Positions 1-5,121 of a DNA stretch of 5,247 bases are shown in pieces. The DNA is from an uncultured Methanomicrobiales archaeon. Its GTDB lineage: Archaea > Thermoplasmatota > Thermoplasmata > Methanomassiliicoccales > Methanomethylophilaceae. The DNA lies in the NCBI GenBank assembly GCA_946528255.1, contig CAMMYR010000066.1, positions 1 through 5,247 of the forward strand, written 5' to 3'. How positions within the stretch are numbered: the first letter of the stretch is position 1; the number at the start of each line of letters is the position of its first letter. A model generated the notes under the pieces. It searched no databases. It saw nothing but the letters and a program-made list of their open reading frames with translations, and was not told the DNA's origin. Both the position numbers and the translations under genes were made by a program.

Positions 1-456
1 GCGACAGTCAAGAAGCCCGTAGCCAAGATGATCGACGGCGCCATGGTCTACGATGTCACCATCCAGGCCGGATCCTCCGTGATAACGACCTTCAGCGGCG
101 AGCTGACCCTGTCCCTGCCCTACGAGCCCGCGGCGGGCCAGAGCACCTCCAAGCTGGCGATCTACCACCTGAGCGCCAGGGGAGAGGCCACCCTGGTGGG
201 CGGGCACTATGGCAACGGAAGCGTCACCGCCTCCCTGCCCCACCTGTCCATGTACTTCGTGGGAGAGGGCGAGTACGAGCCCGAGCCGACCCCTGTCGAT
301 GACGAAGACGACGACATCCTCGACATCATCAGGCACCTCCGCGATGCCCCGGCATCCACCGGCGGAAGGTCCCTGGCCCTGTACGTCGCGGTGGCCGCGG
401 CGGCCGTCGCCGCGGTAGCCGCCATGACTGCGGTCCTGGTATTCAGGAGGAACCGA
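1..456 (+). CDS. C-terminal part of a membrane-anchored surface protein (5' partial)
   Basis: The frame is open from base 1, so the start lies outside the window; 151 codons are visible. The first ~90 residues are beta-rich with many Thr, Ser and Gly, ending in a segment resembling the last repeat of archaeal and bacterial adhesin-like proteins (alternating hydrophobics, then SLPHLSMYFVGEGEYEP). An acidic linker follows (EPEPTPVDDEDDD), then a TM helix of Ala, Val and Leu at codons ~125-148 and the basic stop-transfer end FRRN. This suggests an extracellular domain anchored by one C-terminal helix; the ligand is unknown. There is no standard stop: after AAC comes CGA (454-456), the first in-frame CGA in the visible gene. 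Under the standard code the frame runs through a hairpin and a promoter straight into the next gene, to TAG at 1303-1305. I therefore end it at CGA by inference. Confidence 0.7.
454..456 (+). other. CGA at the expected stop of the surface-protein gene
   Basis: CGA follows the TM helix and its basic FRRN end, eight bases before a perfect hairpin. It is one transition away from TGA. CAA two codons later (460-462) is likewise one transition from TAA, so this site alone is less decisive than the other three. The basis is position and context only. Confidence 0.55.
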
Positions 457-464
457 TCCCAACC

Positions 465-491
465 GCTCCCCCGGCATCCCGCCGGGGGAGC
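465..491 (+). terminator. Perfect 11-bp GC hairpin after the surface-protein gene
   Basis: The arm GCTCCCCCGGC (465-475), loop ATCCC (476-480) and arm GCCGGGGGAGC (481-491) form a perfect inverted repeat. No T-run follows (CCAAACCCTTCTCGC), so it is not a classic intrinsic terminator, and archaeal termination usually depends on T-tracts. It may protect the 3' end of the mRNA or help termination. Its place directly after the CGA supports the upstream gene ending there. Confidence 0.5.
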
Positions 492-524
492 CCAAACCCT
501 TCTCGCACGTCCGCGCCCGCACGC

Positions 525-540
525 GGATATTATGATATAC
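525..540 (+). promoter_or_regulatory. TATA-like promoter of the FNT-ABC operon
   Basis: This AT-rich island (GATATTATGATATA) lies in an otherwise GC-rich spacer, about 40 bases before the FNT ATG. With the usual archaeal spacing, transcription would start near 558-562 and leave a leader of about 14 bases carrying the GAGG element at 563-566. The match to the TTTATATA consensus is imperfect. A promoter here only makes sense if translation of the upstream gene has already ended. Confidence 0.55.
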
Positions 541-562
541 TGCCGTCCTCATCCTGTTGGCA

Positions 563-566
563 GAGG
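563..566 (+). promoter_or_regulatory. Shine-Dalgarno-like GAGG of the FNT gene
   Basis: GAGG lies seven bases before ATG 574 and matches the GGAGG core complementary to the 16S rRNA 3' end. It supports 574 as the start rather than the in-frame ATG at 532, which lies inside the TATA-like element. Confidence 0.5.
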
Positions 567-573
567 CACGACA

Positions 574-1179
574 ATGGATTACGGCAGAAGCTTCGTGAGG
601 GCCATCCTGGCCGGAATCGCCATCGGGGTCGGAGGATGCGTGTTCCTCGGCTGCGACGTCAAGTGGGTCGGGGCGGTACTGTTCTCCATAGGCCTGTTCA
701 CCGTGTTCACGTTCGGATTGGACCTGTACACCGGGAAGGTCGGCTACGCCGTGGACAACGACCTCAAGTACGTGCCGTATCTCATACTGGTCATCATCGG
801 GAACTTCGTCGGTTGCCTGGCGATAGGGCTGATGATGCCCTCCGACGCCGCCGAGAACCTGGCGCTGGCCAAGCTCGACGACCCGGACTACCTCAGGGTG
901 CTCTTCAAAGGGGTCTTCTGCGGCATGCTGATGTTCATCGCCGCCGACTACTACAAGACCAAGAAGAGCTACCTGGCCACATTCATCTGCGTGCCCGTGT
1001 TCATCCTCGCCGGATTCGAGCACTCCATCGCGGATATGTTCTATTTCTGCGCCGGGGGCCAGTTCACCATCGAGGCGCTGCTGTTCATCCTCGTGGTGAT
1101 CGCCGGCAACGCCATCGGCGGCATGCTGATCCCCGCGGCCAGGAAATACATGTACGAGCCCGAGGAGAAGGCCGCACGA
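574..1179 (+). CDS. Formate/nitrite transporter (FNT) family channel
   Basis: A 201-residue integral membrane protein of the FocA/NirC/HSC family, pentameric channels that pass small monovalent anions such as formate, nitrite or hydrosulfide. Six hydrophobic segments lie near residues 6-27, 31-49, 66-87, 106-125, 132-150 and 165-187. Family landmarks are visible: LYTGK (51-55, with the Thr of the omega-loop region), AGFEHSIADMF (146-156, with the central-pore His150) and GNAIGG (178-183). Many FNT proteins have 250-290 residues, so this is a short form, though all six segments seem present. Substrate cannot be told from sequence. ATG 574 was chosen for the GAGG and the promoter. The chain ends EPEEKAA at CGA (1177-1179), whose A begins the next gene's ATG, giving CGATG like the common TGATG overlap. 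Under the standard code it would run to TAG 1303-1305 with a Cys/Arg/Ser-rich tail made by reading the ABC gene out of frame. Confidence 0.85.
1177..1179 (+). other. CGA at the expected FNT stop, in a CGATG overlap
   Basis: This is the first in-frame CGA of the FNT gene (none in 201 codons). It overlaps the ABC start ATG (1179-1181) by one base, exactly as TGATG or TAATG stop-start overlaps do. Beyond it the frame holds four further CGAs in about 42 codons, the density of a non-coding frame. This is the second clearest of the four sites. Confidence 0.7.
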
Positions 1180-2888
1180 TGTCCGCGAAGCTCATATGGA
1201 AGTACCTCAGGGAGCGCCCGGCGCTCCTCTCGGCGCTGGTGCTGCTCCAGGTTGTCACGGCCCTGTTGCAGATCGCCCTGCTCTATCTCACGAAGCCGAT
1301 CATAGACGACGGTGTGAAGCAGAACGATTTCGCGGCGGTCCTGGGGTATGCCCTGGTGATGATCATCCTGGCCGCCGCCATCGGTCTCGTATCATACGGG
1401 GTATCATATGCATCGGCCACGCTGGCGGCGGAGGTCGGGAAGGGCGTCAGACGGGACATCTATACCTCCGTCATGTCCATGTCTACTCCGGACGAGCGCA
1501 CCCGCGACCCATCAGACACCATGGTCAGGATGACATCGGATGTCAACAACATCCAGGAGTACTCCCGTCTGCTGCTATCCGCGGTGCTGTTCGTGCCGGC
1601 GATGATGGCCCTGCTCATAGCAGGGGTATACGAGATCAGCAAGGTCGCCTCCGCAGTCATGCTCGGATCCTACGTCGGGGTGATGCTATTCATGGTGTAC
1701 TCGGGGCGGAGGTTCAGGCCTCTGGTGGAGGACATCCAATCCCGCATGGATACCATCAACGGCATGATCAGGGACACGGCATCCGGCGCCAGGGCCATAA
1801 GGGCCTTCGGTCGCAGGGAGCACGAGATATCGAAGTTCGACGCATTCCACGAGGGATTCGTCGTGATAAACACCAAGTTCAACAACAACACGTTCTTCTA
1901 TCCGATACTGGGCGTGGCCATCGTCAACTTCATCCTGGTATCGGTCTACAACCTCGGGGGGACCAGCGTCGGCGATTTCGAGATGTCGATATCCGAGCTC
2001 TCCCTGATAGTGCAGTTGTGGGGATGCCTGATCGGCTGCATGTCCGTGGTTCCGTTCCTCACGGTCCTGTCCCCCAAATACGCGGTCAGCAAGGCCAGGG
2101 TGCTGGCCCTCTTCGAGGGCGGCACCTCGTTGCCCGATAACGCATCCGAGGACGATCCATCCGCTCCGTTCCTGGTCATGGACGGAGTGACCTTCAGATC
2201 GGAGAACGGGACCGTGCTCGCAGAGGACATATCGCTGACCATCCCACGCGGAGGGGTCACCGTGATCGCCGGCCTGAGCGGACCCCTGAAGAGGCACTTC
2301 GTCAGGCGCATGCTCGGGGTCGGATCCGGGCCCGGGAGCATAACCGTCTGCGGGATAGACGCCTACGGGCCGGACGCCGCGGAGATACGCGGCAGGGTCT
2401 GCGTCGTATCCGACAGGATAATGATGCTCAGGGCCTCCATCAGGGACAACATCCTCATGTCGGAGGACCTGACCGACGATGAGCTGTCCTCCATATGCTC
2501 GGACGCCCTCCTGGACGATGTCCTGGATGCCATCCCCGGCGGATTGGATGCGGACATGGCCTCCTGCGGCATGGAGTTCTCCAACGGGCAGAGGCAGAGG
2601 ATCGCCATCGCCAGGGGCCTGGCCAGCAGGGCCAGGGTGAAGGTGTTCGACGACTGCTTCCATTCCCTCGACCCGGTGGTCGAAGCAGGTGTCATAGGGA
2701 ACATCGTCAGGCGCTGCTCCCGGGATACAACGGTGTTCATATCGGACAGCATGAGGGAGGCCTCCATCGCCGACAGGGTCGTCTTCTTCGACGGGGGGTC
2801 CATCGCGGCCGTCGGCTCCCATGAGGAGCTCATGGCGTCCTGTCCGCTGTACGCCGAGATGCGCAGGATACAGGGGGGTTCCGCATGA
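1179..2888 (+). CDS. ABC exporter half-transporter with degenerate ATP-binding domain
   Basis: A 569-residue membrane-ATPase half transporter of the MdlA/MdlB/MsbA-like exporter type. Six hydrophobic segments lie near residues 14-37, 52-78, 131-151, 156-175, 239-259 and 274-297, with an NBD from about 331. The NBD is decayed at most ATP-handling sites. Walker A is GLSGPLKR (365-372; Arg replaces Ser/Thr and the GSGK core is lost). Ser341 stands at the A-loop aromatic and Asp412 at the Q-loop Gln. Walker B is VKVFDD (487-492), with Asp for the catalytic Glu. Asp523 replaces the H-loop His. The signature FSNGQ (467-471) keeps Ser, Gly and Gln, as needed to complete the partner's ATP site. It is therefore the non-catalytic half of a heterodimer with the next gene. 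GGAG at 1164-1167 may serve as its ribosome site. It ends at a normal TGA (2886-2888) overlapping the next ATG as ATGA. Substrate unknown. Confidence 0.9.
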   Translation: MSAKLIWKYLRERPALLSALVLLQVVTALLQIALLYLTKPIIDDGVKQNDFAAVLGYALVMIILAAAIGLVSYGVSYASATLAAEVGKGVRRDIYTSVMSMSTPDERTRDPSDTMVRMTSDVNNIQEYSRLLLSAVLFVPAMMALLIAGVYEISKVASAVMLGSYVGVMLFMVYSGRRFRPLVEDIQSRMDTINGMIRDTASGARAIRAFGRREHEISKFDAFHEGFVVINTKFNNNTFFYPILGVAIVNFILVSVYNLGGTSVGDFEMSISELSLIVQLWGCLIGCMSVVPFLTVLSPKYAVSKARVLALFEGGTSLPDNASEDDPSAPFLVMDGVTFRSENGTVLAEDISLTIPRGGVTVIAGLSGPLKRHFVRRMLGVGSGPGSITVCGIDAYGPDAAEIRGRVCVVSDRIMMLRASIRDNILMSEDLTDDELSSICSDALLDDVLDAIPGGLDADMASCGMEFSNGQRQRIAIARGLASRARVKVFDDCFHSLDPVVEAGVIGNIVRRCSRDTTVFISDSMREASIADRVVFFDGGSIAAVGSHEELMASCPLYAEMRRIQGGSA

Positions 2889-4648
2889 GCCTGCTTGCCG
2901 ACATCAGGAGGACCTTGGCGCTGCTGAACAAGATGATCGCCGGGGTGCCCGAGGCGCACCGCCTCATCCGTCTGAGCACGGTCCTGCTCATCCTGGGCTC
3001 CCTGGCCGCGGTCCTCGCGCCGGTGGTCGGAGGGTTGTTCTTCAATGCCCTGGTCGACCACTGGGAGGGCAAGAGCATCCTCACGGTGGCGACCATAGAG
3101 CAGATGACCGGCATAATGGCCCTGCTGATCGTCCTCTGGTACGTATTCACATCGATAGCCGGCAGGCGCATGCTGCTGGTCAGCAGGAAGGCCACCGCCG
3201 ACGTCAGGAGAAGGATCGAGAGGAAGCTCCACCGCCTCCCCGTATCCTACTTGGATTCGCACCCCGCCGGGGAGCTGTCCTCGCACATCACCAACGACCT
3301 GGATTCCTTGGGTCGCTTGCTTACCGGCGATCTGCTCAACTTCGTGTCACAGCAGGCGCTGGTGGTGATGGTCCTGATCGTAATGGCCATACAGTGCCCC
3401 CAGATAGCCATCACATACATCCTGCTGGTGCCGCTGGTCTGGTACGCCACATACTACATCGACCGCCGCGCGGCCGGCGATTATGCCGGGCAGCTCACCA
3501 AGATGGCGGAGTTGAACGGCTTCCTGGACGATTCCGTGAGGAACCATGCCCTGATCAAGAGCTTCGGCATGGAGAGGAGGCTGATCTCCAGATTCTCCGC
3601 TATGAACGAGGATTATTCGGAGGCCTACCGCCGCGGGAAGACGATGTCCGGGCTGGTTCAGCCCATAAGCACGCTGACCATGAACGTGGGGTACATAATC
3701 ATGGCCGTTCTCGGCTCGTACATGATCATCGAAGGGGAGCTGACGCTGGGCACCTTCGCCACTTTCCTATTCTTCGTGAGGATGATCAACGGCCCGCTCA
3801 CCAAGGGATCCTACCACATGAACATGATCTCGGAGGAGCTCCACGCCGTGCAGAGGATCAATGCCCTTCTGGAAGAGGAGGAGATCGACGAGTCCGGTTG
3901 CACCGGGACGCTGCCCGACGAGGTCGGCGGGTGCCTGGAGTTCAGGGATGTGCATTTCTCCTACGGCGATGGCAGGGAGGCCATCAGGGGGGTGTCATTC
4001 GCCATCCCCGCGGGCAAGGTCACCGCCATAGTCGGCCCCACAGGCTCCGGGAAGACCACCATGGCCAATCTGATGATGCGCTTCTATTCCCCATCATCCG
4101 GAGAGATCCTCTTCGACGGAAGGGACATCGCCACCATCACCAGGAGATCGCTCAGGGACCACATGGGGATGATAAGCCAGATGCCATGGGTGTTCGATGG
4201 CACGGTAGCCGAGAACATAGGGTATTCGAAGGAGGGATGCACCCGCAGCGACATAGTCGAGGCGGCCAGGATATCCGGGTTCGACAAGTATGTGGAGCTC
4301 CTGCCGGACGGCTACGAGACCACCGTGGGCGACGACAGGTACCAGCTGTCGCTGGGCGAGAAGAAGCTGCTGGTCCTGTCCCGCTCGATACTATCGGATC
4401 CGGACGTGCTGATATTGGACGAGGCCACCGCGGGGGTCGATGTGAGATCGGCGCATATGGTTATGGCGAAGGTCCGCGAGCTGTTCGAAGGCAGGACCCT
4501 GGTTGTGATAACCCACAGCCTCTATTCGATAGCCGATGCCGATCAGATAATCTACGTGGAGGACGGGCTGGTTGCGGAGTCCGGGACCCACGAGGAGCTG
4601 ATGGCGAAGGACGGCGCCTACGCCAGGATGTACAGGAGCCAGTACCGA
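2885..4648 (+). CDS. ABC exporter half-transporter with catalytic ATP-binding domain
   Basis: A 587-residue ABC exporter subunit whose start overlaps the previous stop (ATGA), so the pair is probably translationally coupled; a G-run (2873-2878) precedes the ATG. Six TM segments lie near residues 31-56, 75-95, 152-170, 172-193, 262-285 and 288-301. The NBD runs from about 350: A-loop Tyr360, Walker A GPTGSGKT (384-391), Q-loop Gln432, Walker B VLILDE (508-513, catalytic Glu513), D-loop AGVD and H-loop His544 are all intact. The signature is unusual, LSLGE (488-492) instead of LSGGQ, and would face the partner's decayed Walker A. One composite site should therefore bind but hardly hydrolyse ATP, and the other should be active, as in TM287/288- and TAP-type heterodimers. 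The chain reaches the usual family end (YARMYRSQY) at CGA 4646-4648. The standard code adds 12 residues (RFGSWRTARGPW) to TGA 4682-4684, inside the opposite gene. Confidence 0.93.
4646..4648 (+). other. CGA at the expected stop of the second ABC gene
   Basis: This is the first in-frame CGA after 587 codons with about 40 Arg residues. It comes directly after YRSQY, where exporters of this family usually end. Another CGA follows at 4670 in the short standard-code tail. Confidence 0.65.
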
Positions 4649-4649
4649 T

Positions 4650-4652
4650 TCG
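4650..4652 (-). other. CGA at the expected stop of the CsoR-type gene
   Basis: Read on the minus strand, CGA is codon 91, directly after EQFSRI, the normal end of a ~90-residue CsoR-family protein. It lies one base from the CGA that ends the convergent ABC gene, so plus-strand 4646-4652 reads CGATTCG. No earlier CGA occurs in the gene's 90 codons. Confidence 0.7.
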
Positions 4653-4922
4653 GATCCTGGAGAACTGCTCGAGGGCCTTGGTGAATTCCTGGATGGTCCT
4701 CTCGGCATCGCCGTGCTCTATGCCGTCCCTGACGCAGTGCTGGATGTGACCCTCCATGATGATATGGCCGACCTTCTGCAGCGCGCTCTTCACCGCATTG
4801 ACCTGGATGATGATATCCTCGCAGGGCACATCCTCGTCGATCATCCTGTCGATGGCCGCCAGCTGACCCTGTATCTTCTTCATGCGGGTGTGAAGATTGT
4901 CGGAATCCATGCACTGCTTCAT
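4650..4922 (-). CDS. csoR: CsoR-family copper-sensing transcriptional repressor
   Basis: A 90-residue all-helical regulator of the CsoR/RcnR/FrmR (DUF156) family; these form tetramers that release DNA on binding an effector. The N-terminal helix has the family pattern RMKKIQGQL (13-21). The metal fingerprint is Cys34, His59 and Cys63, with the spacings (25 and 4) of the Cu(I) site of Mycobacterium CsoR (Cys36-His61-Cys65). Glu79 matches its second-shell Glu81, while the second-shell Tyr is Pro33 here. FrmR and RcnR fingerprints do not fit, so Cu(I) sensing is likely. ATG 4922 lies ~26 bases from a TATA box, so the mRNA should be leaderless; Met5 is a weaker alternative. A G-tract operator lies just upstream, implying autoregulation. 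No copper pump or chaperone is in the window. Under the standard code the frame runs on to 4461 as an Arg/Pro/Ser-rich tail antisense to the ABC gene, taking it to 153 residues. Confidence 0.88.
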
Positions 4923-4976: not shown

Positions 4977-5046
4977 AGAGAGGTTGGATGGATACCGCAA
5001 CCGAAGATGCCAGAATACCGAAGCAAGGTAAGAGAAGAGAGATGAG

Positions 5047-5121
5047 TGGTCCCAATGTGATTCGAACACACGACCTTCCGGTTATCAGCCGGACGCTCCA
5101 TCCAGGCTAAGCTATGGGACC
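5047..5121 (-). tRNA. tRNA-Ile (GAU)
   Basis: A complete 75-base cloverleaf on the minus strand: acceptor GGTCCCA/TGGGACC, D-stem GCTT/GAGC, anticodon stem TCCGG/CCGGA with loop CTGATAA (anticodon GAT at 5084-5086), variable loop AGGTC, T-stem GTGTG/CACAT with loop TTCGAAT (one G-T wobble), and discriminator A at 5047. CCA is not encoded (CTC follows), so it must be added by the CCA enzyme. No intron is seen. It decodes AUC and AUU. Confidence 0.96.

Follow-up and report, generated by a model that had tools for sequence, protein, structure and literature searches.

CGA as a very likely stop codon in a contig of an uncultured Methanomethylophilaceae archaeon

The genes of the window and the codons at which they end

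The DNA considered here is a stretch of 5247 bases (the window) from contig CAMMYR010000066.1 of an uncultured archaeon, and the subject of this report is the codon CGA, which stands at the end of most of the genes that the window contains. The G+C content is 60.6% over the window and 86% at third codon positions. Five protein genes, designated A to E, and a gene for tRNA-Ile are present, and a possible further frame begins at the right edge. Gene A (1–456, plus strand) is represented by its C-terminal part, the 5′ end lying beyond the window. It is followed on the same strand by gene B (574–1179), which encodes a protein of 201 residues belonging to the formate/nitrite transporter (FNT) family (PF01226, E = 3.9e-24), and by genes C (1179–2888) and D (2885–4648), which encode two ABC exporter half-transporters (ABC1 and ABC2, the latter of 587 residues), each matched by both PF00664 and PF00005. 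Gene E (4650–4922, minus strand) encodes a CsoR/FrmR-type metal-sensing repressor of 90 residues (PF02583, E = 4.8e-26). The names borne by protein matches include Candidatus Methanomethylophilaceae archaeon, Methanomethylophilus alvi and Methanomassiliicoccales archaeon Mx-03, and the closest named protein relatives belong to the Methanomethylophilaceae, a family of the Methanomassiliicoccales, in the phylum Thermoplasmatota.

It is apparent that four of these genes, A, B and D on the plus strand and E on the minus strand, have CGA at the gene end and no standard stop there. A first-pass annotation of this DNA had proposed that CGA terminates translation alongside TGA, and had placed terminal CGA codons at 454–456, 1177–1179 and 4646–4648 on the plus strand and at 4652–4650 on the minus strand. 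All four were confirmed by script, as was the reported lack of in-frame CGA, none being present among the 1598 internal codons of the five genes. The count of about 95 Arg codons was likewise borne out, these being AGG (59), CGC (24), AGA (7), CGG (3) and CGT (2). The figure of five CGA codons within the first 42 codons past the FNT end was not reproduced: that tail is 41 codons long and contains three, or four if the terminal codon is included.

The fifth gene, C, ends in TGA (2886–2888), the single standard stop among the five. Its T is shared with the ATG of gene D, the overlap reading ATGA, and this TGA cannot become CGA because the change would destroy the start codon of gene D. All of the four stops in the window that are free of such a constraint are CGA. 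The terminal CGA of gene B itself overlaps the start of gene C, as CGATG. None of the five genes is ended by TAA or TAG, and none contains an in-frame TAG. Where genes D and E converge, their terminal CGA codons lie on opposite strands one base apart, within a near-palindrome, taCCGATTCGGat, at 4643–4655.

When these genes are read in their two remaining forward frames, CGA accounts for 112 of 3196 codons; the triplet itself is therefore not rare. Read with the standard code, the frames would stay open past CGA for 282 (A), 41 (B), 11 (D) and 62 (E) codons, and gene A would be read, in a frame that it shares with the FNT gene, through the hairpin described below and on through the whole of that gene. 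These tails, that of gene A being taken only up to the FNT start, contain CGA at 5 of 153 codons, compared with 0 of 1598 inside the genes (Fisher p = 4.8e-6), a difference that any out-of-frame DNA would show. If the four CGA codons were distributed by chance among the 99 Arg codons, the probability that all of them would fall on the four gene ends is 2.7e-7. The weight of the evidence lies in the positions of the four CGA codons, and not in the absence of CGA from the gene interiors. No Pfam match at E values up to 1 was found in the tails of A, B and E, the three that were scanned.

The bases surrounding the terminal codons bear on the idea that the genetic code is standard here and that C-to-U editing of the mRNA turns CGA into UGA. 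We know of C-to-U editing in archaea for tRNA only. The four contexts (aacCGAtcc, gcaCGAtgt, tacCGAttc and atcCGAatc) have nothing in common other than a C or A preceding the codon, and the numerous out-of-frame CGA triplets would have to be either spared or tolerated. A precedent does exist in plant mitochondria, in which a terminal CGA of rps10 has been put down to C-to-U editing (PMC10983754). We consider editing to be very improbable as an account of all four gene ends. Programmed frameshifting at CGA was also considered and is disfavoured: a stop is reached 10 codons on in one of the shifted frames of gene E, and at least 26 codons on in the other seven cases.

The end of gene A was judged from its own anatomy, and not from relatives: the product closes with a hydrophobic stretch followed by FRRN, and the CGA is succeeded directly on its 3′ side by a G+C-rich hairpin (465–491, plus strand) of 11 pairs with a loop of 5. 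The product gave no match in Pfam or NCBIfam, and no homologue search was made with it. The region 454–520 folds with an energy of −29.5 kcal/mol (z = −4.19), and none of 200 shuffled sequences was equally stable. No T run comes after the hairpin, and a terminator scan of positions 400–700 found no terminator. It would mark the DNA as intergenic, and is possibly a transcript-end or processing element. Between it and the FNT gene, the stretch atattatgatatac (527–540, plus strand), read by eye, resembles what we take to be an archaeal TATA box, and is regarded as a putative one.

Certain other properties of the locus may be recorded here. The FNT protein (574–1176) scores far under the NCBIfam cut-offs for FocA, for NirC and for the general fnt model. 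The product of gene C has GLSGPLKRH where ABC2 has GPTGSGKTT, and DDCFH where ABC2 has DEATA, differences which we presume to signify a degenerate nucleotide-binding site; from their sequences, genes C and D seem to encode a heterodimeric exporter in which one of the ATP sites is weak. The tRNA-Ile(GAT) gene (5046–5121, minus strand) is ordinary (Rfam RF00005, 64.2 bits) and is the only tRNA gene that ARAGORN detected in the window.

Gene ends and tails in related proteins

For three of the four genes ending in CGA, the position of the end could be compared with that in homologous proteins. Among the 120 CsoR matches listed, 110 have their last residue in the column that holds residue 90 of the gene E product, just before the CGA. 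Of the FNT matches listed, 117 of 120 have 9–13 residues from the start of a KYM-type motif to the end of the protein, and the window protein has 11; the three that are longer are P0001, P0002 and P0100, the last of which has a charged tail of its own. ABC2 and its eight closest matches listed align without gaps over the 17 residues that lead up to the CGA column; one of these matches, P0128, ends at the residue directly before that column. The ends of the FNT, ABC2 and CsoR proteins agree with those of their relatives, and CGA therefore stands at the family end in three genes.

It was assumed that the proteins in the databases had been predicted with the standard code, in which case the product of a gene ending in CGA would be listed with Arg in place of the stop and, after it, a meaningless tail. 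Such proteins were found for all three families among the matches listed. The two closest FNT matches, P0001 and P0002 (82% identity, ENA), have Arg and then a tail. Seven of the eight closest ABC2 matches (P0121–P0127) carry Arg at the CGA column, again followed by a tail; their BLASTP identities are 92% for P0121 and 60–64% for P0122–P0127, that of P0128 being 57%. Ten of the 120 CsoR matches run past the common end, and in eight of these the next residue is Arg (P0242, P0243, P0286, P0297, P0307, P0308, P0320 and P0327). At the protein level, the pattern is thus present in related species (P0001, P0002, P0121–P0127, P0242, P0243 and others), with P0241 as an exception that is taken up below. 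In P0286 and P0307, the tails after the Arg contain several copies of PWGYQ or of PPGG-like stretches, as though repeats in intergenic DNA had been translated, and the species from which these two proteins come may be further users of CGA stops.

The suggestion that a sequencing or assembly error turned TGA into CGA can be judged from the same matches. Nothing speaks for it other than that the DNA is that of a single contig. The run-on proteins with Arg come from separate and independent sources (ena, jgi, lgn and ncbi), and TGA is otherwise a frequent triplet in the window (76 occurrences on the plus strand and 91 on the minus strand). Error is extremely improbable as the origin of the pattern.

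The nature of the FNT tails was examined with a hidden-frame test, in which the residues that each tail permits in other frames were aligned to the N-terminus of ABC1 from the window. In the gapped form of this test, the two-base frame gave scores of 19.8 for P0001 (2 of 300 shuffles as good) and 18.5 for P0002 (1 of 300). Neither of the remaining frames stood out (197–271 of 300 shuffles as good), and the window itself, used as a control, scored 54.4 (0 of 300). In addition, the residue next to the Arg is Trp (TGG) in both P0001 and P0002, which is what the overlap with an ATG start requires. Given such an overlapping start, the Arg codon must end in A, and is therefore CGA or AGA, each of which is one base away from TGA. 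If these genes are arranged as in the CGATG of the window, what follows the Arg has to be an out-of-frame reading of the next gene. In sequence, the two tails fit such a reading, and not a conserved protein.

These data bear equally on the view that CGA is an ordinary Arg codon and that the genes have been truly extended, their tails being translated after the usual loss of a stop. Single stop losses do occur, and the three CsoR relatives P0308, P0320 and P0327 show Arg and then an immediate stop. True extension would, however, require that four of four free stops in one contig had been lost and that gene A was fused, by way of the hairpin, into a whole FNT protein. Moreover, the tails of the FNT relatives match a different frame of the following gene, and among the eight closest ABC2 matches listed there are seven, down to approximately 60% identity, that continue after the Arg. 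True extension is a very improbable explanation. The earlier proposal of CGA termination alongside TGA is supported by the homologue-defined ends, by the Arg that stands in place of a standard stop in the relatives and by the fit of the FNT tails to the out-of-frame next gene.

Further relatives were sought in other collections. A single-sequence scan of genome contigs with ABC2, using exact patterns of 8 residues, returned 80 loci, none of them titled as Methanomethylophilaceae; 79 were titled as bacteria and one (L039) as Thaumarchaeota. The latter led to genome G001 and 100 relatives of it, and these 101 genomes yielded two weak FNT matches (35% and 30%). Ribosomal protein S26e, presumably a mark of the Sulfolobus side of the archaea, was found in 30 of 30 of the relatives tested from among the 100, and among 14 control genomes only in Sulfolobus. 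The 30 genomes look like another archaeal branch, and provide no bridge to the Thermoplasmatota. Of seven scans of viral contigs, six found no relative and the seventh gave 13 loci at 32–35% identity. These (L085–L097) are IMG/VR contigs that encode FNT-family relatives of the window protein, and three of them exceed 200 kb. A Megablast search with the window against phages and plasmids produced no match.

How CGA may be read

From the positions of the codons and the proteins compared above, CGA is very likely a true stop codon in this DNA; how it is read we infer. The best full explanation, which we regard as distinctly probable, is that CGA is a translation stop in the archaeon from which the window derives and in a small clade around it. 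We also hold it to be probable that, in this clade of the Methanomethylophilaceae, CGA is an ordinary stop, TGA is retained mainly where an overlapping start pins it, and aRF1 reads YGA in place of UGA; this would be the first change of a sense codon to a stop in the genome of a cell, as opposed to that of an organelle. The part of the explanation that concerns stop function is very likely; that which assigns the reading of CGA to aRF1 is more moderately so.

The steps of the proposed mechanism would be as follows. CGA would have become rare, or unread as Arg, once tRNA-Arg(UCG) had been lost or disabled. Either aRF1 itself or a second copy of this release factor would accept C besides U at the first codon position, CGA being read like UGA, and TGA stops would drift to CGA by T-to-C change in a G+C-rich genome, TGA itself presumably still being read as a stop. 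Stalling of ribosomes at CGA, with release of the eRF1 type, is a plausible intermediate. A loss of tRNA-Arg(UCG) and an altered aRF1 had also been surmised in the first-pass annotation. In archaea there is generally one class-I release factor, aRF1, which is of the eRF1 kind (PMC5681627, PMC1586002). In simulations of eRF1 (PMC5681627), Lys63 of the NIKS loop is the residue that reads the first base, and C at that position costs approximately 6 kcal/mol; a change of Arg68, which holds the NIKS loop, to Ala lowers the penalty to 1–2 kcal/mol. These simulations leave mechanistic room for C at position 1.

The strongest competing explanation is that CGA is unassigned rather than a stop: after loss of tRNA-Arg(UCG), ribosomes would stall at the codon and be freed by rescue of the Pelota/ABCE1 type or by codon-blind release through aRF1. 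This predicts the same pattern in the sequence. It is also in keeping with work on eukaryotes, in which CGA stalls yeast ribosomes for want of tRNA(UCG), and, in Neurospora extracts, an eRF1 with a mutated codon-reading motif still gave weak release at rare sense codons (PMC6755126). Stalling followed by rescue would, however, be slow and wasteful for a codon that stands at four of four free gene ends, and an efficient stop is likelier. An unassigned CGA is thus rather unlikely, although less so than the other alternatives discussed.

Several observations weigh against CGA being a stop in this archaeon and its relatives. The absence of internal CGA is, when taken alone, weak: approximately 2.5 would be expected among the 29 CGN codons, on the basis of the share of A-ending codons in the other seven four-codon boxes (70 of 802), and the chance of finding none is about 0.07. 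An earlier, ungapped form of the hidden-frame test gave 8 of 24 matches for each of P0001 and P0002, the shuffle means being 6.6 and 7.2, and so did not set either protein apart from the shuffles, as the gapped form alone did. Hidden readings of the ABC2 tails of P0122–P0127 suggested some downstream protein, and are not used as evidence. Among the CsoR matches, P0343 and P0348 have a single extra residue other than Arg, and P0297 shows differences at the two positions preceding its Arg. In P0308, P0320 and P0327 the Arg is followed immediately by a stop, which ordinary stop drift would give as well; these may be one-codon extensions, or cases of CGA backed by a standard stop. P0241 (92% identity, Candidatus Methanomethylophilaceae archaeon) has a standard stop at the same place. 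Its C-terminal sequence is identical to those of P0242 and P0243, which continue with Arg and a tail, so that a standard stop alternates with Arg, as a T/C exchange at a YGA stop would give. Finally, the DNA comes from one contig of 5.2 kb, the relatives are predicted proteins in which the codon for the Arg is deduced, and both the loss of tRNA-Arg(UCG) and the change in aRF1 are steps that we infer.

Comparison with known code changes and significance

In vertebrate mitochondria, AGA and AGG are terminal codons. As far as was found, the known sense-to-stop changes lie in mitochondria and in one plastid group. Those of green-algal mitochondria involve UCA, UCG (Sphaeropleales), UUR (Pycnococcus) and UUA/UUG (Marsupiomonadales), together with an altered mtRF1a, and the route proposed for them is disappearance of the codon combined with a change in the release factor (PMC6821328, PMC12574857). 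As appears to be the case here, a sense codon vanishes from the interior of genes and ends them. They differ in that they concern organelles with bacterial-type release factors and few genes, whereas the present case concerns another codon and an archaeal cell, which is expected to use a factor of the aRF1 type. In peDinoflagellate plastids, UUA and UCA act as stops, in what the authors call the first sense-to-stop change outside mitochondria (PMC12574857); this too differs from the archaeal contig, being a plastid system with other codons and with a changed pRF2 as the explanation.

Reassignment of CGA and CGG is known from bacteria (Absconditabacteria, Peptacetobacter, Anaerococcus and RFN20 Bacilli), in which the codons become Trp or Gln (PMC8629427). 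The likeness consists in the loss and reuse of Arg codons of the CGN box; the difference is that the bacterial codons specify amino acids in genomes of low G+C content, whereas here the codon would be a stop in G+C-rich DNA. Internal CGA at columns occupied by another residue, the sign of a change to an amino acid, was not seen, there being no internal CGA in the five genes. Certain methanogens possess a pair of class-I release factors that bear substitutions close to NIKS (PMC1586002). Duplicated aRF1 and the decoding of UAG as pyrrolysine resemble the present case in that methanogenic archaea with altered stop usage are concerned, but the pyrrolysine change runs from stop to sense, in the opposite direction, and the genes of the window are without in-frame TAG. 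No report of CGA as a stop in archaea was found among the titles and opening lines of abstracts listed by searches of the open-access literature, subscription journals and bioRxiv being outside the scope of these searches.

A change of this kind could escape the usual surveys. Codetta, the method used to screen 250,000 genomes, is described by its own authors as unable to detect sense-to-stop changes (PMC9825746), and this limit constitutes a blind spot in genome screens. If CGA does act as a stop in the group to which the window belongs, the proteins deposited for these species carry false tails and fusions. CGA termination in an archaeon would also provide a natural test of how aRF1 and eRF1 read the first base of the codon, and would show that the step from sense to stop is possible for a whole chromosome.

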